The position numbers were made by a program, and so were the translations under genes. A stretch of 64,000 nt of DNA from Halostagnicola sp. A-GB9-2 (GTDB lineage: Archaea > Halobacteriota > Halobacteria > Halobacteriales > Natrialbaceae): NCBI RefSeq assembly GCF_030068615.1, contig NZ_JASJOC010000001.1, forward strand, positions 248,001-312,000, read 5' to 3'. Below the pieces are notes generated by a model. The model did not search any database. It was given only the letters and a program-made list of their open reading frames with translations, and was not told the origin of the DNA. Positions within the stretch are counted from its first letter, which is position 1, and each line of letters starts with the position of its first letter. Positions 29,234 to 45,749 of this stretch are shown one piece after another.

Positions 29234-31078
29234 TCAGTAACTTCGAACCTTCGGTTCGTACTCTTTGCTTTCGCCCTCGAGGATAACCGGTCGGTACCAG
29301 ATCGACGGCTTGCCGGCGTTCCAGGAAACCAGCGTGTGTTTGAGCCAGTTTTCGTCGTCTCGCGTCTGGTTTTCCTGTCGCCAGTGAGCGCCGCGGAACT
29401 CGTTTCGGACGAGCGCGCCGAGCGCGATGGTCTCGGCAACGTCGATCAGGTTCCGGGTCTCGTAGGTCATCTGCAGGTCGGTGTTGAACGTTTTCGAGGG
29501 ATCCGCGACGTAGACGTCGCGGTACTCCTCGCGGCACTCGCGGATGATCTCGAGGGCCTGTTTGATCCCCTCTTCGGTTCGGAAGACGTTGACGTAGTCC
29601 GTCATCGCCTTCTGAAGTTTGGATCGGATTTCCGCGTGCTGAACGCCGTCGTCTTTGTTCATGAGCCGATCGACGCGCTCGGATTCCGTTTCGACGGCGC
29701 GCTCGAGAACGCCCTCGGCATCGGCAACCTGTCCGGAGCCGTCGGCCGCGACGTCGTCACCGATCGGCTCGAGGCCGGCTGAACCCGGCTGTACCGGGAA
29801 CTCGGTGTCGTCTTCCTCTTCGACCGCATCGGTGTATCCGGTCTCGATTTCGGCGTCGCCGAGGTCGCCACCCGCCGCGTGGTAGCCGGCTCGCTTGCCG
29901 AAGACGATGAGTTCGGGTAGCGCGTTTCCGCCCAGGCGGTTCGCGCCGTGAACTGAGACGCAGGCACACTCGCCTGCCGCGTAGAGCCCGCTGACGCAGG
30001 TCTCTCCGTTTTCGTCGGTCTCGATCCCTCCCATCGCGTAGTGCTGACCGGGTTTGACGGGCATCGGTTCGACCAGCCCGTCGGCACCTTCGAAGTCCTC
30101 CGCGAGGTGGAGAATGTTCTCCAGACGATCGATAATCCGCTCCTCGCCGAGGTGGCGCATGTCGAGGTGAACGTACTCGTCCTCGACGCCGCGGCCCTCG
30201 CTGACCTCCGTCAGTTCCGCACGCGCGACGACGTCGCGGGAGGCGAGCTCGCCGTCGTTGTTCGCGTAGCCGTGTTCGAACATGAACCGCTCGCCCTCGT
30301 TGTTGTAGAGGATGCCACCTTCGCCGCGGACACCCTCCGAGAGGAGCACGCCCGTCGAGGGAAGCGTGGTCGGGTGGAACTGGATGAACTCCATGTCCTC
30401 GACCGGAACGCCCGCTCGGTAGGCCATCGCGTGACCGTCGCCGGTACACGAGACCGCGTTGGTCGTGTGATCAAAGGCCTGACCGGGACCCCCAGTCGCG
30501 AGGATCACGCCGTCGTTCGCTTTGAAGCCCTCGATCTGGCCCGATTGGACGTCGTAGCCGACGACGCCGTGACAGGTCCGATCGTTGGGATCCGGCTCGT
30601 CGGAGGTCGCGAGGTTCATCACGTACCACTCGTCGTACACCTGAATGCCCCGTTTGACGACCTGCTCGTACATCGTATGGAGCAGGTGGTGTCCCGTCTC
30701 CGCACCGGCGTAGGTGGTTCGCGGGAACGAGAGGCCGCCGAACGGTCGCTGTGAAACGCGGCCGTCGTCCTCTCGAGAGAAGGGCAGACCCCAGTGCTCG
30801 AGGGTGATGGTCTCCTCGGGTGCATCTTGGGCCAGCGTCTCGACTGCGGGAGCGTCGCCCAGGTAGTCCGACCCCTTCATCGTGTCGTAGGCGTGGAGTT
30901 CCCAGTCGTCGCCCTCGCGAAGCGCTGCGTTGATACCGCCCTCTGCCGCGCCGGTGTGGCTCCGAACTGGGTGGAGCTTCGTGACCATCGCCACGTCCGC
31001 TCCCGCTTCGTTCGCCGCGACCGCAGCCCGGAGGCCGGCACCGCCCGCACCGACCACGATAACGTCGTGTTCGTACAT
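29234..31078 (-). CDS. sdhA: Succinate dehydrogenase flavoprotein subunit
   Basis: The 614-residue protein starts MYEHDVIVVGAGGAGLRAAV, the FAD-binding motif. RSHTGAAEGGINAAL contains the segment that usually carries the covalent FAD linkage nearby, and HRLGGNAL-like SVHGANRLGGNALPELIVFG and a C-terminal HWRQENQTRDDENWLKHTL match SdhA. It oxidises succinate to fumarate and passes electrons to SdhB. It is the last gene of the sdhCDBA operon, five bases after sdhB. Confidence 0.97.
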   Translation of the reverse strand: MYEHDVIVVGAGGAGLRAAVAANEAGADVAMVTKLHPVRSHTGAAEGGINAALREGDDWELHAYDTMKGSDYLGDAPAVETLAQDAPEETITLEHWGLPFSREDDGRVSQRPFGGLSFPRTTYAGAETGHHLLHTMYEQVVKRGIQVYDEWYVMNLATSDEPDPNDRTCHGVVGYDVQSGQIEGFKANDGVILATGGPGQAFDHTTNAVSCTGDGHAMAYRAGVPVEDMEFIQFHPTTLPSTGVLLSEGVRGEGGILYNNEGERFMFEHGYANNDGELASRDVVARAELTEVSEGRGVEDEYVHLDMRHLGEERIIDRLENILHLAEDFEGADGLVEPMPVKPGQHYAMGGIETDENGETCVSGLYAAGECACVSVHGANRLGGNALPELIVFGKRAGYHAAGGDLGDAEIETGYTDAVEEEDDTEFPVQPGSAGLEPIGDDVAADGSGQVADAEGVLERAVETESERVDRLMNKDDGVQHAEIRSKLQKAMTDYVNVFRTEEGIKQALEIIRECREEYRDVYVADPSKTFNTDLQMTYETRNLIDVAETIALGALVRNEFRGAHWRQENQTRDDENWLKHTLVSWNAGKPSIWYRPVILEGESKEYEPKVRSY

Positions 31079-31083
31079 AGTTA

Positions 31084-31962
31084 TTACCAGAATTTCAGGT
31101 TTTTCTTGACTGCCTCACGTTTGAGCTCCTGAATGTGCTCCGTGAGTGGGATGTCTTTCGGGCACACTTCGGTACAGGAGAACTGGGTCTGACAGCGCCA
31201 GACACCGTGTTCCTGCTCTAAGATCCGAAGTCGGTGCTCCTTGATCTCTTCGTCTTCGCGCTCGTCCATCGCGAACTTGTAGGCCTTGTTGATCGCGGCC
31301 GGACCGAGGTACTGGTTGTCGCCGGCGGCGATGTTACACGAGGACATACACGCGCCACACCAGATACAGCGCGTAGACATCTTGACCTTCTCGCGGTTTT
31401 CGCGAGGCTGTCGTTGTTCCTCGAGGTCGCCCTCGGGAAGGTCCTCCTGCTGGAAGTAGGGCTCGACGGCGTGCATCTGGTCGTAGAAGTGATCCATGTC
31501 GACGACGAGATCCTTGACGACCTCCTGATGTGGAAGCGGTTCGACGCGAACCGGCTGTTGGAGGTCCGAAATCTGGGTCTTGCAGCCGAGTTGCTGCGAG
31601 CCGTTGATGAAGAAGGCGTCCGACCCGCAGATCGCTTGCCGACAGGAGTGGCGGAAGGTTAGCGACGAATCGAACTCGTCGCGCGCGAAGATCAGCGCGT
31701 CGAGGACGGTCATCCCCTTCTCGAAGGGGACGTGAAACTCGTCGAAACGGGGTTCCTGCTTTCCGCTCACTTCCGGGTCGTAGCGAAAGACCTTCAGGTG
31801 AACCGACTCTCCCTCGACGTCGGATTCGTCGACGGACTCCGCTTCGGCCAGTCCCTGTTCTTTCTTGTCGAGTCGCTCTTGTTGTGGCGACTGCTGTCCC
31901 TTCATTTCGGGATCTTTCGGTGCCTCTTGGGTTTCCGGTTGTTCTTGCTGTTGTGTACTCAT
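31084..31962 (-). CDS. sdhB: Succinate dehydrogenase iron-sulfur subunit
   Basis: The start ATG overlaps the sdhD stop (TAATG). After a 60-residue Gln/Glu-rich leader comes the ferredoxin domain with SCRQAICGSDAFFINGSQQL then GC; the third ligand position is Asp, as in E. coli SdhB, rather than Cys. The C-terminal domain has CIWCGACMSSCN and CQTQFSCTEVCPK for the other clusters. The acidic, Gln-rich N-terminal extension is longer than in bacterial homologues. It passes electrons from SdhA to the membrane anchor. Confidence 0.96.
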   Translation of the reverse strand: MSTQQQEQPETQEAPKDPEMKGQQSPQQERLDKKEQGLAEAESVDESDVEGESVHLKVFRYDPEVSGKQEPRFDEFHVPFEKGMTVLDALIFARDEFDSSLTFRHSCRQAICGSDAFFINGSQQLGCKTQISDLQQPVRVEPLPHQEVVKDLVVDMDHFYDQMHAVEPYFQQEDLPEGDLEEQRQPRENREKVKMSTRCIWCGACMSSCNIAAGDNQYLGPAAINKAYKFAMDEREDEEIKEHRLRILEQEHGVWRCQTQFSCTEVCPKDIPLTEHIQELKREAVKKNLKFW

Positions 31963-32330
31963 TAGACGCTCACCCCTGCCATGACGATTGCAACGTAGAT
32001 ACCCTGTGCGACGAGTGCGACACCCGAGAGCGCCAAGACGGCGAAGACGACCTTTTTCGGGGTGCCCGAGAGTCCCTGATTGACCAGCGCGTTGTAGATA
32101 CCGTTGATGCCGTGGAACGCGGCCGTGATCAGGAACAACACCATCGCTAGGAAGTACCCGACGTTTTCCATCCGCGCTTGGGTCCCGGCGAAGGTAACTT
32201 CTGCGGCGTGATTGACGAAGTGAAGTTGGAAGAAGTGAAACGCCAGAACGATTATCAAGAACGCCGCGGTGATCCGCTGGAGTAACCAGCCGGTTCCGCC
32301 GGGCGTAAACGAGGAGTACCGTTCTGCCAT
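31962..32330 (-). CDS. sdhD: Succinate dehydrogenase membrane anchor, SdhD
   Basis: The 122-residue protein has three hydrophobic helices (RITAAFLIIVLAFHFFQLHF, ENVGYFLAMVLFLITAAFHG and VVFAVLALSGVALVAQGIYV) with His residues in the first (FHFFQLHF) and second (AAFHGING) that are candidates for haem or quinone contacts. It is flanked by sdhC and sdhB with one-base overlaps. With SdhC it anchors the enzyme and binds the quinone. Confidence 0.92.
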   Translation of the reverse strand: MAERYSSFTPGGTGWLLQRITAAFLIIVLAFHFFQLHFVNHAAEVTFAGTQARMENVGYFLAMVLFLITAAFHGINGIYNALVNQGLSGTPKKVVFAVLALSGVALVAQGIYVAIVMAGVSV

Positions 32331-32761
32331 TAGAAGCCCACCCCCTGAAGGAACGTCGGTACGCTCGCGACGGTAATGACGCCCGTGAGGATAAGGGAGG
32401 CGTAGAAGCTCTTGTCCTGCGAATCGAGACCGATTCCCAGATCAACCATCAGGAGTCGCACCCCGTTCAAGATGTGGAAGACTGCGACCGCGAGCAGTCC
32501 GACTTCCAGTACACGAATAATAAAGAGGCTCTCGAGTCCCTGGATCGTCCCCGTGTAGACGTTTACCTCCTCTCCGGCAAGCATCATCATCTGTCCATCC
32601 GCTGCACCGATTGCTGTGCTCAATACGGCAATGTGGGTAAACAGGTAGCCGATAAGCATCCACCCGGTGAACTTGTGAAAAATCCACGCCCACATCCCGG
32701 CCGAGAACTCCTTCCACCGACCGAAGTCCTCGATGAGACCGCGATTGTAAGACTGACTCAT
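32330..32761 (-). CDS. sdhC: Succinate dehydrogenase cytochrome b556 subunit, SdhC
   Basis: First gene of sdhCDBA. The start is the ATG giving [16 protein letters not shown]; longer frames upstream lack conserved residues. Helices include [20 protein letters not shown], with His in the HKFTG and FTHIA segments typical of haem b ligands, and [16 protein letters not shown], the SdhC signature. At 143 residues it is of normal size. The roughly 150 bases upstream should contain the operon promoter; CTTCTATACC lies about 35 bases before the start. Confidence 0.93.
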
Positions 32762-32915
32762 ACACTCATGTGGTGGGTTAGCCTGCGGGGGTATAGAAGT
32801 TACTTCTTTGATTCCGAAGCGGGTACAGAAACGGACAAAACACAACTCGGGCGGGAGTGAGTCTGAAACAACTCGGATAGAAGATCGAATCCGTGGTCAA
32901 CGAAACGGCCCTGAG

Positions 32916-34001
32916 TCATTCGAGATAACTCAACAGCGGATCGGCGTTGTTTCGCTCGCGCTCTAAGGCGGTGCGCGTCTCCGGTTTGAGACCGACGAGA
33001 TGACAGAGTGGGTTGCCGGGATAGACCACGGGGTTCTCGAGGACGCCGACGATCAACCCGGTAAACGGCGCTTCGACGGAGACGATGTCTTCCTCTTCTT
33101 TGAACGGATCCGTGATCGTACAGATCACGTCGCCCTCCCGGACGAGTTCGCCGCGGCCGTGTTTCATATCGACCATCCCTCCCGCGTCGGCGCGCAACCA
33201 CGTCTTTTCGTCAGTATCGTCGATGAGGATGCGCCACCCGGGCCAGTGAACGGACGACTCTCGGTGGAGTCCGAACTCGGCGAGCACGCTCGCAACACCC
33301 GTCAACGCGCGATCGATGAGCGAGCGCTGAAACCGGTGGGCTTCGCCCATTTCGATGGTGATCGTCGGAACGCCGGCGTCCGTCGCCTCCCGTCGCAACG
33401 TTCCCGACGGCCCCTGTCCGTCGATGATGACGTTCGAACTGAACGCGTTGGCGAGCCGGACGATGTCGCCGTACTCCATATCCGCGCGGACGTGGAGCAT
33501 GTTCGTCCGTCCTCGAGTCGAGGTGTGAAAGTCCAGCCCGAGGTCGCAGGGCTCGATGAAGTTCGTGAAAATTCGGTGGGCCATCCGTCGAGCGCTGGTC
33601 GACCCCTCACGTCCCGGAAACGACCGATTGAGGTCCCTGTCGTAGATCGGCAGATATCGTTCCTGGGCCAGAAAGCCGGGGACGTTCATTACGGGGAGGC
33701 AAATGAGCGTTCCGTGGAGTTTCGTGTGATCCCAGTCATGGGCGACTTCTCGGACGACTTCGATGCCGTTGAGTTCGTCGCCGTGGGCCGCCGCCGAAAG
33801 AAACACTGTCGGCCCCGGATGCTGTCCGTTGACGACTGTTACCGGAATCCGAACAGGATCGCCGAGATACGTTTCGCTGATTCCATACCTGATATTTACC
33901 GACTCGCCGGGATCGACTCGACCACCATTGTAAGTAAAGACGTCGTCGGCCTCGCCGGACGCATCAGTGTCGGCTGGGTCGGCCGTCCGTTCATCCGTCA
34001 T
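32916..34001 (-). CDS. Succinylglutamate desuccinylase/aspartoacylase family zinc hydrolase
   Basis: The 361-residue protein has the zinc site AAAHGDELNGIEVVREV (His and Glu), followed by YDRDLNRSFPGREGS and the second metal His/Asp in LDFHTSTRGRTN. This is the M14-like aspartoacylase fold that removes acyl or amino acid groups from amide bonds. The C-terminal 110 residues form a beta domain with VSVEAPFTGLIVGVLENPVV, as in the family. It is divergent from a GNAT gene and 2.8 kb from a RimK-RimB fusion; related genes recur together with RimK-type ligases, so it may act on the same modification. Confidence 0.9.
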   Translation of the reverse strand: MTDERTADPADTDASGEADDVFTYNGGRVDPGESVNIRYGISETYLGDPVRIPVTVVNGQHPGPTVFLSAAAHGDELNGIEVVREVAHDWDHTKLHGTLICLPVMNVPGFLAQERYLPIYDRDLNRSFPGREGSTSARRMAHRIFTNFIEPCDLGLDFHTSTRGRTNMLHVRADMEYGDIVRLANAFSSNVIIDGQGPSGTLRREATDAGVPTITIEMGEAHRFQRSLIDRALTGVASVLAEFGLHRESSVHWPGWRILIDDTDEKTWLRADAGGMVDMKHGRGELVREGDVICTITDPFKEEEDIVSVEAPFTGLIVGVLENPVVYPGNPLCHLVGLKPETRTALERERNNADPLLSYLE

Positions 34002-34109
34002 GGTCTCCCTGTCGTCGTCCGGTATGAAACGTGTACCGCTGTTCGAAACCGTTCGCGAAATTTCCCCCCGAGGGCATATGTTTTGTACGAGGGCATGTTA
34101 GTAGTGAGC

Positions 34110-34862
34110 ATGGATCTTCGTGAGGCGACTGAAGACGATGTCGATGAGATTCGGGAGATTGCTCGAGCCTCGCTCAATTCGCTGTATACTGACTTTCTAT
34201 CGGAAGAAACGATTGACGATGCGCTCGAGCAATGGTACGGAGAGTCGTTCGTCGAGGACGTCAACGATAACCACACCCTGTTCATCGTCGTCGAACGCGA
34301 CGGCGAACTCATGGCGTTCTCTCAGAGCGTGCTGGTCGGCCAGCGCTACGGTACCGGACAACTGCTCTGGTTGCACGTCCACCCGGACTACCGCGGGAGC
34401 GGCGTGGGCGTCCGATTGCTCGTCCGAACGCGCGAACTCCTCCTCGAGGAGGGCGCAGATCAGGTCCGCTGTTTCGTCCTCACGGACAACGAGGGTGGAA
34501 ACCAGTTCTACGAGGACCACGGCTTCGAGCAAGCGGGCCAGCGGGAGGTTGAAATCGGCGACGAAACGTTCACTGAGAACGTCTACGCGGAAGCCGATAT
34601 CGAGAGCGACGAGGGGTGGGATGCCGTCGATCAACTCGAGATCGACGGCGAGAACGTCTACGTGAGCTACGGCGAAGCGGCCCGCGGGTCGAAATCACCG
34701 TTTTACTCCGCCTACGGGACCGACGAGTTCGAAGAGCGATACGGCTGGCTCTGTGGCAACTGCGACTCGATCGACAACGCGATGGACACAATGGGGCGTA
34801 TCGAGTGTAACAATTGTGGAAACCGTCGGAAAGCGACGCGCTGGGACGCCTCGTATCTGTAG
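34110..34862 (+). CDS. GNAT acetyltransferase with C-terminal zinc ribbon (DUF5816-like)
   Basis: The start is the ATG giving MDLREATEDDVDEIREIARA; another start five codons upstream is in frame, and the long open frame further upstream is antisense to the hydrolase gene. Residues 1-165 are a GNAT domain with LLWLHVHPDYRGSGVGVRLL, the acetyl-CoA loop. The C-terminal 85 residues have CGNCDSIDNAMDTMGRIECN followed by NCGN, four Cys suited to bind one zinc, as in haloarchaeal DUF5816. It acetylates an unknown amine. Confidence 0.88.
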   Translation: MDLREATEDDVDEIREIARASLNSLYTDFLSEETIDDALEQWYGESFVEDVNDNHTLFIVVERDGELMAFSQSVLVGQRYGTGQLLWLHVHPDYRGSGVGVRLLVRTRELLLEEGADQVRCFVLTDNEGGNQFYEDHGFEQAGQREVEIGDETFTENVYAEADIESDEGWDAVDQLEIDGENVYVSYGEAARGSKSPFYSAYGTDEFEERYGWLCGNCDSIDNAMDTMGRIECNNCGNRRKATRWDASYL

Positions 34863-35139
34863 ATTACGGACCGGTTTCTCCGCATTTCCTCCAGTAGACG
34901 GTGCTTGTCTGTGCGCTCCACTCGAGAGCACCGAGCCGATCGAAGGCCGGTCCATCAGCTATCGTGGGAGTTCAATGTAGTACGATATTTCTGACTGTTG
35001 TGAGTCCATTACAATTGCCCAATTCGGACTGTGGTTCACTGTATCGATCATCCACCGGCTGGTTCACGAGTGCATCGGACGGCTAATTCACGACTGCATC
35101 GTACCGAACTCTGCGAACGAACGGGAGCACATCTGATAA

Positions 35140-36609
35140 ATGGATAGACAGGAGCACATCGTCCGAGGATTCAAAGCGACGCTCGTCGCTCGAGCTGTCT
35201 ACATGATCTCGAGCGCACTGTTGATGTTCCTTCTCGCCAGTTATCTACTCGACCCGGAAGGGTACGGCGAACTCTACTGGGCGATCGGCATTCTGGCGGT
35301 CGTGCAGTTGTTCGCCGACGTCGGTCTGGGCAAATCAGCGGCGAGATACGTTTCAGAGTACCGAGAAGACGATCCAGGACAGATACCGCATCTCTTGCAG
35401 ACGACCGTCGCGGCCAAGCTCGTCGTGATTGCCATCGTCGCGTACACGCTATTGCTCTTTCACGACCAGATCGCAGTCGCGCTCGGCGATCCGGGAGTCG
35501 CGCCGTTTCTCGCGGCGGGCGTGATCTACATTACGGTTAACTCCTTCAACGTGTTCGCACAGATCGTTTTTCAGGGGTACAACCAGCTCGTCTACAGCGC
35601 CGCGATTCAGGCGATCAGCGGAGCGGCTCGGTTGGTTTTCGCCGTAGGATTCGTCCTCGCCGGGCTTGGTGCCCTCGGGGCGTTCTTCGGATACATCGTC
35701 GGTTACGCGATTGCGGCGGTAATTGGTCTCGCGATTCTCTACTACAAATTTTATCAACCGACCGAAGCCGCAGAGGTGTACGAAGATGGCCTCTCGCGTC
35801 GATTGCTCGAGTACAGCGTTCCGTTAACGGCGACTCGGAGCGCGAACGTTATCGACAAACAGATCGACATCGTCCTCGTCGGTGTCTTTCTCAACCCGGT
35901 TGCGGTCGCCTTCTACACGCTCGCAAAGCAAATCACGGACTTCGTCCTCGCCCCGGCCGAGTCGCTGGGCTTTACGATATCGCCGAATTTCGGCGAGCAG
36001 AAAGCCGCCGGGCAACTCGAGGATGCGCGCCGAATCTACGAGATGGCGCTGACGAACGCGATGTTGCTATACGTGCCCGCGGCCGTCGGGCTCGCGCTGG
36101 TCGCGGAACCGTTCATGACGATGGTGTTCGGAAACGAGTACGCAGGTGCCGTGCCGGTCATGCAGATCCTCTGTTTGTTCATCGTCCTGCAGGCGGTTAC
36201 GAACCTCACGAGCGATAGTCTCGATTATCTTGGGCGCGCTCGAGCCCGTGCGATTGCGAAAGGCGGGACATCGATCGCGAATCTGGGACTCAACATCGTC
36301 CTCATTCCGACGATCGGCGTCGTCGGAGCCGCAATTGCGACGATTATCACGCACACCGTGTACGTGCTGGTCAACCTCTACATCGTCCACACCGAACTAT
36401 CGCTCCGGATCGGTTCGTTGGCCCGTTCGTTCGGGAGTATCTGTGCCATAACCGGTGGGATGGCCGTGACCGTCCTGTTGGTCACGCCGCTGATATCGAA
36501 CCTCTTCATGCTGTTCGGTGCGATCGCGCTCGGCGTCGTCACCTGGGGCGTGCTGGCTATCGCGAGTGGACTACTCGATCTTAGAGAGGTTCGATCCATC
36601 GTCACCTAA
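35140..36609 (+). CDS. Flippase, polysaccharide transport (MATE/MOP) family
   Basis: The 489-residue protein carries about 14 hydrophobic helices. The N-terminal RGFKATLVARAVYMISSALL, the second-helix GYGELYWAIGILAVVQLFAD and the central TATRSANVIDKQIDIVLVG are typical of RfbX/AglR-like polysaccharide flippases. It probably moves lipid-linked oligosaccharide across the membrane for glycoprotein or surface glycan assembly. No glycosyltransferase genes lie beside it, so its glycan is unknown. About 180 bases separate it from the next gene. Confidence 0.88.
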   Translation: MDRQEHIVRGFKATLVARAVYMISSALLMFLLASYLLDPEGYGELYWAIGILAVVQLFADVGLGKSAARYVSEYREDDPGQIPHLLQTTVAAKLVVIAIVAYTLLLFHDQIAVALGDPGVAPFLAAGVIYITVNSFNVFAQIVFQGYNQLVYSAAIQAISGAARLVFAVGFVLAGLGALGAFFGYIVGYAIAAVIGLAILYYKFYQPTEAAEVYEDGLSRRLLEYSVPLTATRSANVIDKQIDIVLVGVFLNPVAVAFYTLAKQITDFVLAPAESLGFTISPNFGEQKAAGQLEDARRIYEMALTNAMLLYVPAAVGLALVAEPFMTMVFGNEYAGAVPVMQILCLFIVLQAVTNLTSDSLDYLGRARARAIAKGGTSIANLGLNIVLIPTIGVVGAAIATIITHTVYVLVNLYIVHTELSLRIGSLARSFGSICAITGGMAVTVLLVTPLISNLFMLFGAIALGVVTWGVLAIASGLLDLREVRSIVT

Positions 36610-36787
36610 TATGTCGGTCGTACGTCACTTCCGGCCATTCGCCACCCAGCTCTGGCGACAAACCGGTGAATAGGTACAATCGACCCTGTGACGCTGACAG
36701 CGCGTTCGAAAGCGTATTCACCTGCTGACGTTCCGGCACGCTGAAACCACTACCAACGCTTTTCCGGATTCTCGGTGTTCATGTGGT

Positions 36788-38131
36788 ATGCCTAAAAGCG
36801 ATCCCGTTACGGTTGGGGTGCTCAGCCTTCACACGAGCAAGGAGACGAAAGCGATACTCAACGCCGTCGAAGCGCTCGGTCACGACACGGAGTGGCTTCG
36901 CGAAGAAAATACGAGCGTTCGCGTCGAGGACGGCACCATCTTTCTCGAGCCCGATGTCGACGTTATTGCAAATCGGATGTTACTTTCGAATACCGAACAG
37001 CCCTGCGAAGAGCTCGGACTCGTCAATACGTTCTCGCAACTGGTTCCGATGCTCAACGAGCCAGGGCCAGTACTCACGGCGGTCCACAAACTCTCAACTG
37101 CTGGCGCGCTCGCGACGAACGGCATTCGCGTTCCCGACGTGTTGCTCGCACTCAACAGCGATCAACTCAACGACTCGAGACAGCAGTACGGCGACGAAGC
37201 AGTCTACAAGACGGCGATCGGAACCCACGGCGGCGGTACCTGGAAAGTCGGACCCAACGACGTCATCAACGCCAAAGTTGGCAACCGATACGCGTTCTTG
37301 CAGGAACTCATCGACCGGGACGACCAACGCCACCGCGACGTCCGAATCTACGTCGTCGGTGGCGAAATCATCGGGGCGATGTATCGGTATGCGCCCGATA
37401 ACGACTGGCGGACCAACGTCGCACTGGGCGGTGCAGTCGAGGACGCCACGGAAGAACTCCCCGAGAGCGCCCGCGAGATAGCCAGACAGTCCGCGGCCGC
37501 GATCGGTCTCGATTACGCCGGCGTCGACCTCGTCGAAGGCGAGAACGGCTGGTTCGTCCTCGAGGTCAACCCGACGGCCGGTTTCAAGGGGCTGTACGAA
37601 GCGACACACGTCAGCCCGGCACCCTACATCGCGAAACTCGCCATCGAACACGCGGGTGGTTCCGTCGACGATGATCGAGTCGCGGAGCTCGCCGGAACGC
37701 TCGATGACTCCCAGCCGCTGGCGCGTCCCCCCGAGCAGGCGATGGTCAACGACAAACCGGCCACCATCGGCTACACGGAGGAAATCGTCCTCTCGGGAAC
37801 CAGCGGCTCGGAATCGGTCCTCGCCAAGTCAGACACGGGCGCGACCAGAACCAGCATCGATACGAGTCTCGCCGCCGACATCGGCGCAGGACCGATCAAG
37901 TCGGTCACGCGAATCAAATCGGGAAGTTCGAAAACGTCGAAGAGCCGACCCGTCGTCGATATCGTGGTCGGCGTCGGCGGTAACCGCCACACCGTCACCG
38001 CGAGCGTCGAAGACCGGAGCCACATGGACTACCCCGTTTTGCTCGGGCGCGACATTCTCGAGAACTACCGCGTCGACGTGAGCAAACGCGTCGATCGCGA
38101 CGTGGCCGATACGCCCGAAGAGGAAGAATAA
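36788..38131 (+). CDS. RimK-type ATP-grasp ligase fused to RimB-like retropepsin domain
   Basis: Residues 1 to about 290 are an ATP-grasp enzyme of the RimK/LysX type: a pre-ATP-grasp lobe (VTVGVLSLHTSKETKAILNA), then VYKTAIGTHGGGTWKVGPND, RDVRIYVVGGEIIGAMYRYA and the Mg-binding WFVLEVNPTAGFKGLYEAT. Residues about 315-440 are a second domain, IGYTEEIVLSGTSGSESVLA then KSDTGATRTSI and YPVLLGRDILENYRVDVSK, which is the RimB (DUF785) fold with the DTGA motif of retropepsins. A RimK ligase would add Glu-type residues to a protein C-terminus and the RimB part would cut them. One chain with both activities is the notable point. Confidence 0.88.
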   Translation: MPKSDPVTVGVLSLHTSKETKAILNAVEALGHDTEWLREENTSVRVEDGTIFLEPDVDVIANRMLLSNTEQPCEELGLVNTFSQLVPMLNEPGPVLTAVHKLSTAGALATNGIRVPDVLLALNSDQLNDSRQQYGDEAVYKTAIGTHGGGTWKVGPNDVINAKVGNRYAFLQELIDRDDQRHRDVRIYVVGGEIIGAMYRYAPDNDWRTNVALGGAVEDATEELPESAREIARQSAAAIGLDYAGVDLVEGENGWFVLEVNPTAGFKGLYEATHVSPAPYIAKLAIEHAGGSVDDDRVAELAGTLDDSQPLARPPEQAMVNDKPATIGYTEEIVLSGTSGSESVLAKSDTGATRTSIDTSLAADIGAGPIKSVTRIKSGSSKTSKSRPVVDIVVGVGGNRHTVTASVEDRSHMDYPVLLGRDILENYRVDVSKRVDRDVADTPEEEE

Positions 38132-38350
38132 CGCGTAACCACGTCGATTGTGCGAGATCGATTGGGGACATCGACTGCGAGACTTCGCCCTCAAAAGCGA
38201 AAGCTCGAGAGAGCGCTCCCCCAATCGTTCATCGCTTTCTGACTCCCGCTCGTTTCGATTCACGCCACCTCCACTCCCCTCACTGATTGATCACCAAGCA
38301 CTGTTATTGCGTTCGAAAGCACAGAGTACGAATGCGTGAGTGATCGACGA

Positions 38351-41038
38351 ATGGAGTGTAACCGCTGTCTCCTGTGTGGAACTGCACTGGAGAGTCCATC
38401 CACCGATCCGCCGGACGAGCTATCCACAGATCCGTCGGACGACCTATCCACCGATTCCCTCGGCACCCCTTCAACCGAAGCGGGTTCGGACGACGCGTTC
38501 TGTTCGTCCGGCTGTAGCGACGTCTACGACGTACTCGGTGCGCCCACTGGTACTCCTCACAACGCCTCCGCTAACCGCAATCTCGCCGTCGGCGAGGATT
38601 CGGCAGCCTCCCGGAACGACGGTGAGACAGCTTCTCAGGGCGACGACGATCAGCCGGACTCTCAGGGCGAGGATTCAGGAGCATCGAACGATCGACAAGC
38701 GACCGAAATCGTTCGAACGTTCTTCCGTGTCGACGGCATGCACTCTGTGACCTGTGAAGCGTTCTTAGAATCAACCGCCGGGGCACGCGACGGCGTCGAG
38801 CGCGTCGCCGCGAGTTACGTTACGGAAACGGTACGGGTCGATCACGATCCCGAGCGCATCTCGGAAACCGAACTGCAGAACGCGCTGAGTAGGGTCGGCT
38901 ATACCGCATACCTTCGATCGGACATAACGGGCAAAGGAGACAAAAGACAGCGTTCGAGCGAGGAGGGAGAGACCGCGACAGGTACAACTCAGCGCTCGAG
39001 GGAAATGACCGGCCTCCGGAAACGCCGGACCGATGACATGCTCGAGATACGCTACATCGTGGGCGTCGTGTTCGGAACGTTCCTGTTGGTTCCCTACGTC
39101 GCGATCTTGTACCCGGTGTATCTCGCGTCTATCACCGATTGGGGGATGCTGTCCCTGTACGAAGGCGCCTTTGAGAACCTCGAGGGGTTGTTGTTTCTCC
39201 CCCTGTTTTTCGTGTTGACGGCTGCCGTCCTCTACTTGACCGGAATGCCCCTTCTGCGCGGTTCGTACATCAGTCTAAGACTGAGACGACCGAATACGCA
39301 CCTGCTCGCGGCACTCACGATAACCTGTGCGTACATCTATGGCACACTCTCCTTTTTGCTCGGCGGGAACGACGTCTACTACGATCTGACGATCATCGTC
39401 GCAGCCGTGATAATGGCCGCGGTTTTCTACGAGGCGACGGTCAAGCGGCGAGCGATCGATCGCCTCACCGATCTCACGATTTCACAGGTTGAGGAGGCCC
39501 GTTTGCTCGAATCGAGCGGAACGAGCAAGGTCCCCGTCGAGGAACTCGAGTCCAGTGATCGAGTGCTCGTTCGACGAGGAGAACGGATCCCGGTCGACGG
39601 CGTACTGCTCGAGAGCGCGTGTACGGTTGATGAAGCGATCGTCACCGGCGAATCGGTCCCGGTTTCGAAAGCGCCCGGAGAACGCGTCATCGGCGGCTCG
39701 GTCGTCACGAACGACGCCGCGGTTGTTCGGGTGGGAGAGCAGACGACGAGTAGCATCGATCGACTAACCCGAGTCGTCTGGAACGTCCAAAGCGCGGATC
39801 ACGGCGTCCAGCGACGCGGTGACCACCTTGCCGGACTCTTCGTTCCGGTCGTCTGTGGCGCTGCGGCCGTCGTGGGTGCGACGCTGTTCGTTCTCGAAGC
39901 GAGTCCGGTGACGATCGCGATGAGCGTTCTCCTGACAGTTATCGTCTCGAGTCCGTGGGCGATCGGGTTCGCGACGCCGGTTTCGGTCGCCTCGAGCATC
40001 CGAGACGCGATGGACCGAGGGATCGTCGTCTTCGACGAGACCGTCTTCGAACGGCTTCGGGCCGTCGACATCGTCGTCTTCGACAAAACGGGAACGCTCA
40101 CGACGGGCAAGATGACCGTTCTCGAGGCAGACGCTCCCGAAGACGTACTGGAAGCTGCCGGGCTGGTAGAACGGCGGGCATCGCACCCGGCAGCGGCGGC
40201 TATCGAGGCCGAGTTCGCGGTGAGGCCGATACCTCGAGAAGACGCCTCGAAACGGCCCGACGGCGGCTTTACGGACGAGCGATCGAACGAAAACGAACGC
40301 CGAGTTCGCGACTTTCGAAGCCACGATACCGGCGTCGAGGGAACTGTCGACGGACGCGCGGTACTCGTCGGCCATCCTGCACTCTTTCGGGAACGGGGAT
40401 GGGACCTCGACGATCGACTCTGCGCCCGAGTCTCGAGCGCCCGAGAATTCGGGCGACTCCCGGTCGTCGTCGGGACCGACGGGCGTGCAGACGGCGTCGT
40501 GATCGTCGGCGACGAACCGAGGAACGAGTGGGACGAAACGGTCACCGAACTGAACGATAATGGCGTTGAGGTCGTGGTCCTCACCGGGGACGACGAAACG
40601 GCGACCGACTTCTTCGATCGTCATCCGGGTGTCGATCGGGTGTTCACGGGCGTTCCGCCGGCCGGAAAGACGGCGACGATCCGGTGTCTGAACGGCGAGA
40701 ACCGCGTGGCCATGGTCGGAGACGGAACGAACGACGCCCCGGCGCTCGCCGAGGCCGACCTCGGCATCGCGCTGGGGAGCGGTACCGCGCTGGCCTCCGA
40801 CGCGGCGGATTTGGCGATCGTCGACGACGATCTCACCGCTGTCGAGCGGGCGTTCGCCCTGTCGACCGCCGCACGCCGGCGCGTCACGCAGAACCTCGGG
40901 CTGGCGCTGGTCTACAACGCGCTTGTGATCCCTCTGGCGGTAATGGGAGTGCTGAACCCGCTGTTCGCGACTGTTGCCGTGGCTACGAGCAGTCTCCTCA
41001 TCGTTGCGAACTCGTCGCGTCCCCTTATCGACGAGTAG
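38351..41038 (+). CDS. P1B-type ATPase, FixI-like, with SPW in place of CPC
   Basis: An 895-residue ATPase (a GTG five codons upstream is an alternative start). The N-terminus has CNRCLLCG and FCSSGCSDVYDVL, the Cys-rich module of FixI/CcoI copper ATPases, separated by a Ser/Thr/Asp/Pro repeat. A degenerate HMA domain follows (FRVDGMHSVTCEAFLES). TGES (VTGESVPVSK), DKTGTLTTG with the phosphorylated Asp, an HP motif (ASHPAAAAIE) and GDGTNDAPALAEAD are intact, so ATP hydrolysis should work. The membrane CPC metal motif reads SSPWAIG (Ser534-Pro535-Trp536). TM7 keeps YN. The metal and direction of transport cannot be read. Confidence 0.85.
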   Translation: MECNRCLLCGTALESPSTDPPDELSTDPSDDLSTDSLGTPSTEAGSDDAFCSSGCSDVYDVLGAPTGTPHNASANRNLAVGEDSAASRNDGETASQGDDDQPDSQGEDSGASNDRQATEIVRTFFRVDGMHSVTCEAFLESTAGARDGVERVAASYVTETVRVDHDPERISETELQNALSRVGYTAYLRSDITGKGDKRQRSSEEGETATGTTQRSREMTGLRKRRTDDMLEIRYIVGVVFGTFLLVPYVAILYPVYLASITDWGMLSLYEGAFENLEGLLFLPLFFVLTAAVLYLTGMPLLRGSYISLRLRRPNTHLLAALTITCAYIYGTLSFLLGGNDVYYDLTIIVAAVIMAAVFYEATVKRRAIDRLTDLTISQVEEARLLESSGTSKVPVEELESSDRVLVRRGERIPVDGVLLESACTVDEAIVTGESVPVSKAPGERVIGGSVVTNDAAVVRVGEQTTSSIDRLTRVVWNVQSADHGVQRRGDHLAGLFVPVVCGAAAVVGATLFVLEASPVTIAMSVLLTVIVSSPWAIGFATPVSVASSIRDAMDRGIVVFDETVFERLRAVDIVVFDKTGTLTTGKMTVLEADAPEDVLEAAGLVERRASHPAAAAIEAEFAVRPIPREDASKRPDGGFTDERSNENERRVRDFRSHDTGVEGTVDGRAVLVGHPALFRERGWDLDDRLCARVSSAREFGRLPVVVGTDGRADGVVIVGDEPRNEWDETVTELNDNGVEVVVLTGDDETATDFFDRHPGVDRVFTGVPPAGKTATIRCLNGENRVAMVGDGTNDAPALAEADLGIALGSGTALASDAADLAIVDDDLTAVERAFALSTAARRRVTQNLGLALVYNALVIPLAVMGVLNPLFATVAVATSSLLIVANSSRPLIDE

Positions 41039-43028: not shown

Positions 43029-45719
43029 TTATTCGTCTCCTCGTGTTTCGGCCTCGCCTTCCGGCCCGAACTCGGCATCCGCGTGAGTGCTCCCGAATTC
43101 GGCTTCGGCCGCCGCGGGTTCCTCGCGTGCGAGCCGCATCGCGTTGCCGGTTACGCCGAGGCTCATCCCCATGTCGCCGATGACGACGGCGTGGATGACG
43201 GTGACGATGCCGAACGGCGCACCGGCCGCGAGCACCGCTTTCACGCCGAGGCTCGCCCAGATGTTCTGTCGGATGACGTCGTTTGCCTTCCCCGACAGTC
43301 TGTAGAGGTACGGAAGCCGCGTCAGATCGTCGCTCATCAGCGCGATATCGGCGGTCTCGAGCGCTGTATCCGTTCCCGCCGCACCCATGGCGATGCCGGT
43401 CGTCGCCGTCGCGAGCGCCGGCCCGTCGTTGATGCCGTCCCCGACCATCGCGACGCTCCTCGAGAACGATGAGGCCGAAACCTCACCAGCGTCTCCAGCG
43501 ACAGCGTTCGCCTCGAGGCGTTCGTCCGGCTCCGCGTCACCGTCCCCTTTGAGGCGTCGGATCCACTCGAGTTTCTCCTCGGGCATGAGTTCGGCGTGGT
43601 ACTCGTCGATTCCGACCTCGCCGGCGATCGCCCGCGCGGTTCCCTCGTTATCTCCGGTGAGCATCACTACCCTAATTCCCTGCTCTTGTAACTGCGAAAC
43701 GGCCCACGACGCCTCCGGCCGGACCTGATCCGCGACGGCGACTACTCCGAGCGGTCCGTCTTCCGTCCCCACGACGACGACGGTCTTTCCGTCCGCCTCG
43801 AGTTTCGGGACGACCTCGGAGAGGACATCGAGGCAATCCTCTCGATCGCAGCTAGGGATCGATTCGTGGTCCCACTCGGCTCGTTCCGGTTCCGACTCGA
43901 GGACGGTTCCGCCATCCGTCGCGTGGACGTGCTCGAGATCAGCCAGTCCGTCGAAGAGATCCGGTTTTCCGACGTAGTGCGTGACGCCCTCGAGATCTGC
44001 GCGAACTCCTCGTCCGGTAAGGGCCTCGAAGTTCGAGACCGCGAACTCGTCGGAGCTATCGGGTTCGTCGCCGATAGCGTCGGACGCCAGCCCGCGTTCT
44101 TCCGCAGCCCCGACGATCGCTTCACCGACGGGGTGCTCGCTCCGCCGTTCGATAGCGCCAGCGCGGGCGAGGACGTCGTCTTCGTCCGCCCCCTCGAGCG
44201 GGATCACGTCGGTGACGTTCAGTTCGCCGGTCGTGAGCGTTCCCGTCTTGTCCACCGCGAGGATCTCGCTTTCGCCGACCGCCTCGAGGTGACGCCCGCC
44301 CTTGATTAGCACGCCGTTTCTGGCGGCGCTCGTGATCCCCGAGACGACGCTGACGGGCGTGCTGATGACGAACGCACAGGGACAGGCGATGACCAGCAGG
44401 GTGAGTCCGCGCAGGAACCAGGTGTTCCAGGACGCCCCGACCAGCAGCGGCGGGAGCGCGGCGACGGCGACCGCGAGCACGACCACGATGGGCGTGTAGA
44501 CGCTGGCGAAGCGATCGACGAACTGCTCGCGTTTGGTCGACTCGCGTTCGGCGTCCTCGACCATCCGAACGATTCGGGCGATGGTCGAATCGTCGGCCTC
44601 GCTCTCGACCGCTACCTCGAGGTAACCCGATTCGGCGATAGTTCCGGCGTAGACCTCCTCGCCCGCGGTCTTATCGACGGGGACGCTCTCGCCGGTAATC
44701 GGCGACTGGTCGACCGCGCTCTGGCCGTCGGTAACCGCGCCGTCGGCCGGGATCTTCTCTCCCGGCTTGACGACGACGGTGTCGCCGATTTCGAGCGAAT
44801 CCACCGCGACGACTTCCTCCGTGCCGTCCTCCCGACGAACGGTCGCCGTCTCCGGCGAGAGGTTCATCAACTCCCGAAGGGAGTCTCGTGCCCGGTCCAT
44901 CGAGAACCGCTCGAGGAGCTCTGCAACGGAGAACAACACGGCGAGCATCGCGCCCTCAAAGGGATGGTGGGCCGCGACGCTGGCGACGATACCGACGCTC
45001 ATCAGGAAGTCGATATCGAGGCTCCGATTGCGCGCGGAGTAGTAGCCGTTTCGCAAGATCGGAACGCCAGCGACGGCGACCGCGCCGATGAACAGCGCTT
45101 CAGAGAGTCCGTAGGTCCGGCCGAACGCGGTGATAAGGGCCGGATCAAGCGCGGGAAGAAGGAACTCCAGTACCATCCCGACCGCGACGAAGACGGCACC
45201 GACGGCGGTTCCGAGCGCCCGCCGACTTCGCCACACCGCTCGAGACTCGACGACCCCATCGTCTCCGTCCTCGATCGGTTTTCCCTCGTACCCAGCGTCG
45301 TCGATGGCGTCGATAACGACTGGCATCTCGAGGTCGGATACACCGGACACCGTCACGCGCCCGGAGGCTGGCCGCGTTTCGATTTCTTCGATGGAGTCGA
45401 CGCGCTCGAGCGCGTTTTCGACTTTGTTCGCACAGGAGGCACAGTCCATGTCCGGAACCGAGACGGTGAACTCGGTCTCGTCGTCGGCAATAGCGTAGCC
45501 GGCGGCCCGCACGCGGGCCCGAATATCGTCCTCGCTCGCGAGTTCCGGATCGTACTCGACGACGAGTCGGCCGCTCGTTACCTGCGGTTCGATCGCCTCG
45601 ATTCCCTCGAGGCGTTCGATACTGTTCGTTACCTTCCCGGCACAGGACGGACAGTCCATCTCGGGAACCCGACATTCGAGGGTCATCCTCGAGGTCGGCG
45701 ACGTGGAAGGGTCACTCAT
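43029..45719 (-). CDS. Zn/Cd-type P1B-2 ATPase (ZntA-like)
   Basis: The 896-residue pump has two HMA domains with intact pairs (PEMDCPSCAGKV and PDMDCASCANKV). CPCAFVISTPVSVVSG, DKTGTLTTGELNV, TGESVPVDKT, an HP motif (RRSEHPVGEA) and GDGINDGPALATA are complete. A Lys in TM7 (GVKAVLAAGAPF) and an Asp in the last membrane helix (VIGDMGMSLGVTGNAMRL) are the P1B-2 signature for Zn, Cd and Pb, so it most likely exports divalent soft metals. A 40-residue insert in the nucleotide domain holds HESIPSCDREDC, an additional candidate metal site. An HTH_10 gene lies directly upstream on the same strand. Confidence 0.93.
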   Translation of the reverse strand: MSDPSTSPTSRMTLECRVPEMDCPSCAGKVTNSIERLEGIEAIEPQVTSGRLVVEYDPELASEDDIRARVRAAGYAIADDETEFTVSVPDMDCASCANKVENALERVDSIEEIETRPASGRVTVSGVSDLEMPVVIDAIDDAGYEGKPIEDGDDGVVESRAVWRSRRALGTAVGAVFVAVGMVLEFLLPALDPALITAFGRTYGLSEALFIGAVAVAGVPILRNGYYSARNRSLDIDFLMSVGIVASVAAHHPFEGAMLAVLFSVAELLERFSMDRARDSLRELMNLSPETATVRREDGTEEVVAVDSLEIGDTVVVKPGEKIPADGAVTDGQSAVDQSPITGESVPVDKTAGEEVYAGTIAESGYLEVAVESEADDSTIARIVRMVEDAERESTKREQFVDRFASVYTPIVVVLAVAVAALPPLLVGASWNTWFLRGLTLLVIACPCAFVISTPVSVVSGITSAARNGVLIKGGRHLEAVGESEILAVDKTGTLTTGELNVTDVIPLEGADEDDVLARAGAIERRSEHPVGEAIVGAAEERGLASDAIGDEPDSSDEFAVSNFEALTGRGVRADLEGVTHYVGKPDLFDGLADLEHVHATDGGTVLESEPERAEWDHESIPSCDREDCLDVLSEVVPKLEADGKTVVVVGTEDGPLGVVAVADQVRPEASWAVSQLQEQGIRVVMLTGDNEGTARAIAGEVGIDEYHAELMPEEKLEWIRRLKGDGDAEPDERLEANAVAGDAGEVSASSFSRSVAMVGDGINDGPALATATTGIAMGAAGTDTALETADIALMSDDLTRLPYLYRLSGKANDVIRQNIWASLGVKAVLAAGAPFGIVTVIHAVVIGDMGMSLGVTGNAMRLAREEPAAAEAEFGSTHADAEFGPEGEAETRGDE

Positions 45720-45749
45720 CACGTCATCCTAAGTGACGGTAGTGGATAG

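Follow-up and report, generated by a model that had tools for sequence, protein, structure and literature searches.

Here, we report a RimK-RimB fusion protein and a partner zinc hydrolase of the succinylglutamate desuccinylase/aspartoacylase type from the haloarchaeon Halostagnicola sp. A-GB9-2, encoded within 64,000 nucleotides of RefSeq assembly GCF_030068615.1 (contig NZ_JASJOC010000001.1, positions 248,001 to 312,000; hereafter the window). The fusion joins a ligase to a protease in one polypeptide that ends in glutamate, and it is inherited together with the hydrolase throughout most of the haloarchaea. The evidence leans toward the two genes being a haloarchaeal version of the RimB-RimK-hydrolase trio of bacteria, condensed into two proteins and running a self-primed poly-alpha-glutamate cycle. 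A preliminary description, made from the letters of the sequence, had named a 447-residue ligase-protease fusion with a DTGA motif; its open reading frame (ORF), its coordinates, and the Pfam and NCBIfam matches all agree with that description (Table 1). The flippase lying between an acetyltransferase gene and the fusion, and the Glu-terminated tail, went unmentioned there.

The RimK-RimB fusion was confirmed as real: its frame is open in all listed haloarchaeal matches but one (which has a single TAG) and is therefore no chance frame. The ligase module extends to about amino acid 288, and the fusion scored 149.8 bits against the RimK family model TIGR00768, just over the curated cut-off of 143.4 (NCBIfam). 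On the protease side, Pfam Zn_protease (RimB family) matched amino acids 370 to 435 (E=5e-10), and the PF05618 score of 39.8 bits (gathering cut-off, 27) places the domain in the RimB family. Across 38 homologues, the ligase residues K141, R208, N210, D247, E259, and N261 were invariant, leaving the Mg/ATP residues of the ATP-grasp (K141, D247, E259, and N261) intact, as were D349, T350, G351, and A352, which include the DTG catalytic motif. The solved structures nearest to the ligase part were RimK (including RimK with RpsF, 5zk6) and LysX/ArgX, and those nearest to the protease domain were the RimB-like chains 9g59, 9g58, and 2pma. The first two are the chains that relate the domain to the Pseudomonas aeruginosa Rlo proteases (RloA1-3), which have the RimB-like retropepsin fold and differ in being secreted, partnered with RloB and RloC, and unfused (PMC12239564); the NCBIfam RloA2/RloA3 models matched the protease domain weakly. 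In AlphaFold models, the RimK part was usable, the RimB part had a predicted local distance difference test (pLDDT) value of <50, and the hydrolase averaged 65.6. Two full matches and one weak partial match to RimK-type ATP-grasp proteins were found elsewhere in the same genome.

The two-domain architecture, which the preliminary description had proposed seeking in haloarchaea, was present in 272/292 haloarchaeal genomes and 72/77 genera (E<=1e-20), with four of the 272 (G021, G110, G114, and G241) carrying distant paralogues only. In a phylum-wide search, haloarchaeal RimB domains always lay within an open frame of about 450 to 1,070 codons, and methanogen matches were mostly stand-alone, at about 160 to 200 amino acids. 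Fusion loci were found in Haloferax (L074-L094), and the Haloferax volcanii control genome has the RimB domain too. A second, diverged RimK-RimB fusion (L114-L117, L122, L166, L167, L175, and L176; about 46 to 61% identity in the ligase part) is carried by megaplasmids of haloarchaea or present as an additional copy in the chromosome; the L116 copy is divergent to a hydrolase, and other copies adjoin universal stress proteins or other genes.

The hydrolase is a genuine partner of the fusion. Neighborhoods were mapped by tblastn, and among 80 named loci the two genes were usually neighbors beside sdhCDBA, with more families arranged likewise. Beyond Natrialbaceae, the pair is usually divergent, with a gap of typically 59 to 246 nucleotides; in Natrialbaceae a GNAT acetyltransferase gene and a flippase gene are inserted between them, and in Haloarchaeobius the GNAT gene alone. 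A hydrolase orthologue was present in 268/268 genomes with the fusion (E <1e-140) and missing in 21/24 that lack a fusion orthologue (20 with no match at all plus the four with distant paralogues only), where the best hit reached only E=1e-34 to 1e-44 (Fisher p=4e-29, uncorrected for kinship). By family and genus assignments, the fusion losses are spread over roughly ten separate lineages. Three exceptions (G110, G168, and G184) have an intact hydrolase beside a broken fusion remnant, and in G114 a hydrolase remnant remains. Remnants of the fusion or the hydrolase in genomes losing the system lie at L232 (10231-10302) and L233-L236; wherever a single gene is intact, it is the hydrolase.

It is most improbable that the two genes are syntenic passengers beside sdhCDBA, lost together by single deletions and sharing no pathway. 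The sdh-hydrolase-fusion block is conserved as a whole, and some losses could be one event; against this, sdhC was retained in 15/15 loss genomes examined, only the three exceptions above keep one gene intact alone (each with a fusion remnant), and rimB-rimK-hydrolase operons recur in bacteria and methanogens. The strongest evidence for one pathway comes from retention of both genes where they are unlinked and from a double loss. Both are kept, far apart, in at least nine genomes (e.g., G045, G064, G029, G213, and G261). In the Natrialbaceae genome G052, a clean deletion has removed the hydrolase from between sdhC and the GNAT gene, and the fusion is cut to a 24-amino-acid remnant beside an intact flippase gene; these are two separate losses, with the genes in between retained. 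Since G052 kept the GNAT and flippase genes while losing the other two, both are excluded from the system. The preliminary description had assembled ligase, protease, hydrolase, and GNAT into one shared system and had suggested looking for a conserved four-gene neighborhood. Its first three members stand, by class-wide adjacency, co-loss, and homologous operons; the GNAT gene occurs at the locus only in Natrialbaceae and some allies (Haloarchaeobius), and the flippase gene is a Natrialbaceae-specific insertion.

Operons of RimB, RimK, and a hydrolase were found on bacterial plasmids of Salinivibrio, Phaeobacter, two Vibrio species, and the cyanobacterium Acaryochloris, and in methanogens of family f13 (L127-L140). 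These hold the same three families side by side, as three separate genes in one operon rather than a fusion and a divergent gene, and their RimK usually ends RTRGKG-like, not in Glu. The f13 RimK is closely like bacterial RimK, including the RTRGKG end, which suggests that this operon was transferred from bacteria; these methanogens have no bacterial S6. In Vibrio sp. THAF190c (L112, 6767-8161), rimK precedes rimB in the same frame, parted by a stop and 48 bases, an order from which the RimK-RimB fusion could arise. Several bacterial trios (L242, L243, L119, and L244) adjoin mechanosensitive channels, Mg transporters, CorA, or a cation:proton antiporter. We take K05844 to be rimK. Brackish bacterial genomes reportedly carry this orthologue more often than marine ones do (PMC10219603). 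For the system, an osmotic or ionic function is no more than a suggestion.

The window hydrolase falls in the AstE/AspA family (PF24827, 167.7 bits), with H73, E76, and H159 (HxxE...H) invariant; by family membership, H159 is the third zinc ligand. The fold and zinc motif are common to DoeB, AstE, aspartoacylase, and CphZ, yet it lies under the equivalog cut-offs of DoeB (96 of 403 bits), AstE, and AspA. Like the trio hydrolases, its gene is genetically linked to rimK/rimB, and its best bacterial relatives are trio members (33 to 40% identity, 180 to 211 bits), ahead of DoeB (30% identity, 94 bits); this ordering uses scores alone, as the hydrolase tree was weakly resolved with long branches. 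CphZ, a fold match that splits dipeptides released from the storage polymer cyanophycin (function from its PDB title), offers a useful analogy. Plasmid relatives of the hydrolase (L247 and L248, 57 to 66% identity) have no fusion nearby, one of them lying beside a copper ATPase, so this type of hydrolase also serves other purposes.

The fusion ends in glutamate in 105/107 homologues and in -EE in 83/107; 39/41 genera have Glu ends throughout. A run of two to six Glu is usual in the last 20 residues, preceded by a linker variable in length and sequence, and the tail codons mix GAA and GAG, so the run is not a simple DNA repeat. The distant megaplasmid paralogues end in E too (8/9 in EE). As background, 649 ORFs were taken from 800 kb of this genome: 18% have a terminal E, 2.3% (15/649) a terminal EE, and none (0/649) a terminal EEEE. 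It is highly improbable that the tail is no more than the acidic terminus to be expected of any halophilic protein: haloarchaeal proteins are acidic, but the bias at the fusion end is for Glu and not Asp (fractions in the last eight residues of 0.59 E and 0.08 D, versus 0.13 and 0.09 in the same 649 ORFs), the hydrolase next door ends in E in only 8/72, and a terminal E is lacking in the hybrids and trio members of bacteria.

The comparison with bacteria gives the tail a candidate role. S6 ends in GDSEE in Escherichia coli RpsF and in DNADE in that of Pseudomonas fluorescens SBW25; RimB, which does not act on Asp, requires an unbroken run of about six Glu, or of five when the encoded terminal residue is the first of them; and RimK with RimB makes free poly-alpha-glutamate of up to 28 to 36 units (PMC11957791). 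By analogy, the encoded run, mostly at or under the RimB threshold, may be cuttable only once the ligase has extended it. In Pseudomonas RimABK (RimK, RimB, and RpsF), a ligase and a Glu-specific retropepsin-like protease likewise share Glu chains, and RimB stimulates poly-alpha-Glu synthesis by RimK; that system differs in having separate proteins, an RpsF target, and control by RimA and cyclic-di-GMP. The preliminary description had held that archaea lack bacterial S6, and indeed no PF01250 match occurs in this genome; S6 was also absent from a haloferacacean and five methanogens. The substrate of an E. coli-type RimK is thus missing, which makes the fusion's own tail or free oligo-Glu the likeliest acceptor. 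The preliminary description had assumed an external target; the conserved Glu-terminated tail of the fusion is itself a candidate acceptor.

In the proposed cycle, the RimK domain would use ATP to attach glutamates by alpha linkage to an acceptor with Glu at its C-terminus, most likely the Glu-ended tail of the fusion itself, free oligo-glutamate, or both. Once the Glu run had become sufficiently long, the RimB domain would cut the chain. The zinc hydrolase would remove terminal Glu or hydrolyze released oligo-glutamates, as CphZ does with cyanophycin dipeptides, so that glutamate is recycled. We infer the glutamate substrate, the order of steps, the self-acceptor, and any osmotic or storage role from these comparisons. 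Tentatively, the fusion may be a self-acceptor, extending its own Glu tail with alpha-linked glutamate and releasing the chain by its own retropepsin-like domain, in the manner of glycogenin, which serves as its own primer for glycogen.

Two other substrates have to be weighed. It is doubtful that the system adds glutamate to the C-terminus of some other protein of the cell while the fusion's Glu end sits in the acceptor site as a substrate-mimicking or autoinhibitory tail until displaced. In its favor, S6 modification by RimK is the case known best (PMC11957791, PMC7343187), the fusion's terminal -EE is similar to the two RpsF ends, and the EE-ending proteins in the genomic sample mean that other acceptors exist; against these stand the absence of S6 from this genome, the haloferacacean, and the five methanogens, the failure to find a conserved external target, and a Glu-specific, variable-length tail that exceeds the needs of a minimal mimic. 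A small-molecule ligase, like MptN, CofF, LysX/ArgX, or a peptide synthetase, with protease and hydrolase processing the product, is improbable. The MptN (124 bits) and LysX (109 bits) models outscore the E. coli RimK equivalog (PRK10446; 70 bits, cut-off 331) on the ligase part, the fold is close to ArgX/LysX, and methanogen RimK homologues make coenzymes (PMC11957791), but the scores are far under the MptN and LysX cut-offs (350 and 275.6), and it is hard to see what a fused endoprotease of the Glu-specific type and a Glu-terminated tail would do in a pathway of this kind.

Several points weigh against the self-primed glutamate cycle. The amino acid added could differ from glutamate, because the RimK domain is far under the E. 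coli RimK equivalog cut-off; the enzymatic activity of the archaeal members is a prediction; and no glutamylation of RpsF by the bacterial hybrid was seen in the published work (PMC11957791). Instead of being an acceptor, the Glu end could serve for autoinhibition or binding; the tails of the plasmid paralogues are short (15 to 23 residues after LGRD), which may limit reach in cis; and the RimB part of the AlphaFold model is unreliable. Adjacent genes can vanish by one deletion, a case that only G052 clearly rules out.

Coordinates of the system and its surroundings are given in Table 1. The GNAT ORF as listed (620 amino acids) is over-extended, because its first ~370 codons are antisense to the hydrolase gene. 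Two heavy-metal P-type ATPase genes lie <8 kb from the fusion (38336-41038 and 43029-45722 of the window) and are not a general neighbor in other genera. A shared divergent promoter was considered: in the intergenic regions of 34 loci, TATA-like elements occur on both sides, and a CGGCAnnnnTTTg-type box, shared in part, precedes the fusion gene, but these elements gave nothing decisive on a regulator.

Table 1. Features of the RimK-RimB fusion locus, in window positions
Feature	Positions	Strand	Remarks
sdhCDBA, conserved flanking operon	29234-32845	-	Landmark, not a member
Succinylglutamate desuccinylase/aspartoacylase-type zinc hydrolase, 361 amino acids	32916-34001	-	PF24827 E=3e-49; conserved partner
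HGDE zinc-ligand motif of hydrolase, amino acids 73-76	33774-33785	-	Invariant
GNAT acetyltransferase with DUF5816 zinc ribbon	34110-34862	+	Lineage-specific neighbor; judged not a system member
Wzx/MOP-type flippase	35140-36609	+	Between GNAT and fusion; Natrialbaceae-specific neighbor, judged not a member
RimK-RimB fusion gene, 447 amino acids	36788-38131	+	Ligase domain N-terminal, protease domain C-terminal; ORF, Pfam, and NCBIfam
RimK-type ATP-grasp domain, amino acids 100-274	37085-37609	+	Pfam RimK E=2e-23
RimB/retropepsin-like domain, about amino acids 326-431	37763-38080	+	Pfam, structure comparison
DTGA active-site motif, amino acids 349-352	37832-37843	+	Invariant in 38 homologues
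C-terminal Glu run EEEE, amino acids 444-447	38117-38128	+	Proposed built-in acceptor

Bacterial RimB-RimK hybrids have already been published (Desulfotalea psychrophila DP2392 and others, in a survey that took in bacterial accessions), and they too hold a RimB-type protease and a RimK-type ligase in one polypeptide, with a RimB part that cuts poly-Glu tails; the D. psychrophila hybrid cuts poly-Glu RpsF (PMC11957791). Their order is the opposite, RimB-RimK (seen in Aureibacter and Thioclava, L250-L252), they have no Glu end, and those of Thioclava and Aureibacter have no annotated hydrolase neighbor. New in the haloarchaeal protein are the reverse order, the Glu end, the co-inherited hydrolase, and the near universality in the class. 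A search of one literature collection found no paper on the haloarchaeal fusion; Iyer et al. 2009 (amidoligases) could mention such fusions.

With this finding, a bacterial chemistry known for modifying S6 moves into an entire class of archaea in which bacterial S6 is absent, so ribosome tuning, the usual explanation, cannot hold there. It also defines a system of two genes in organisms amenable to genetics (Haloferax), with the Glu end of the enzyme itself as a specific candidate acceptor. Should self-priming hold, it would show how, and what for, RimK/RimB enzymes make free poly-alpha-glutamate, and the self-acceptor with its paired zinc hydrolase would be a complete, class-wide archaeal make-and-break cycle for that polymer.

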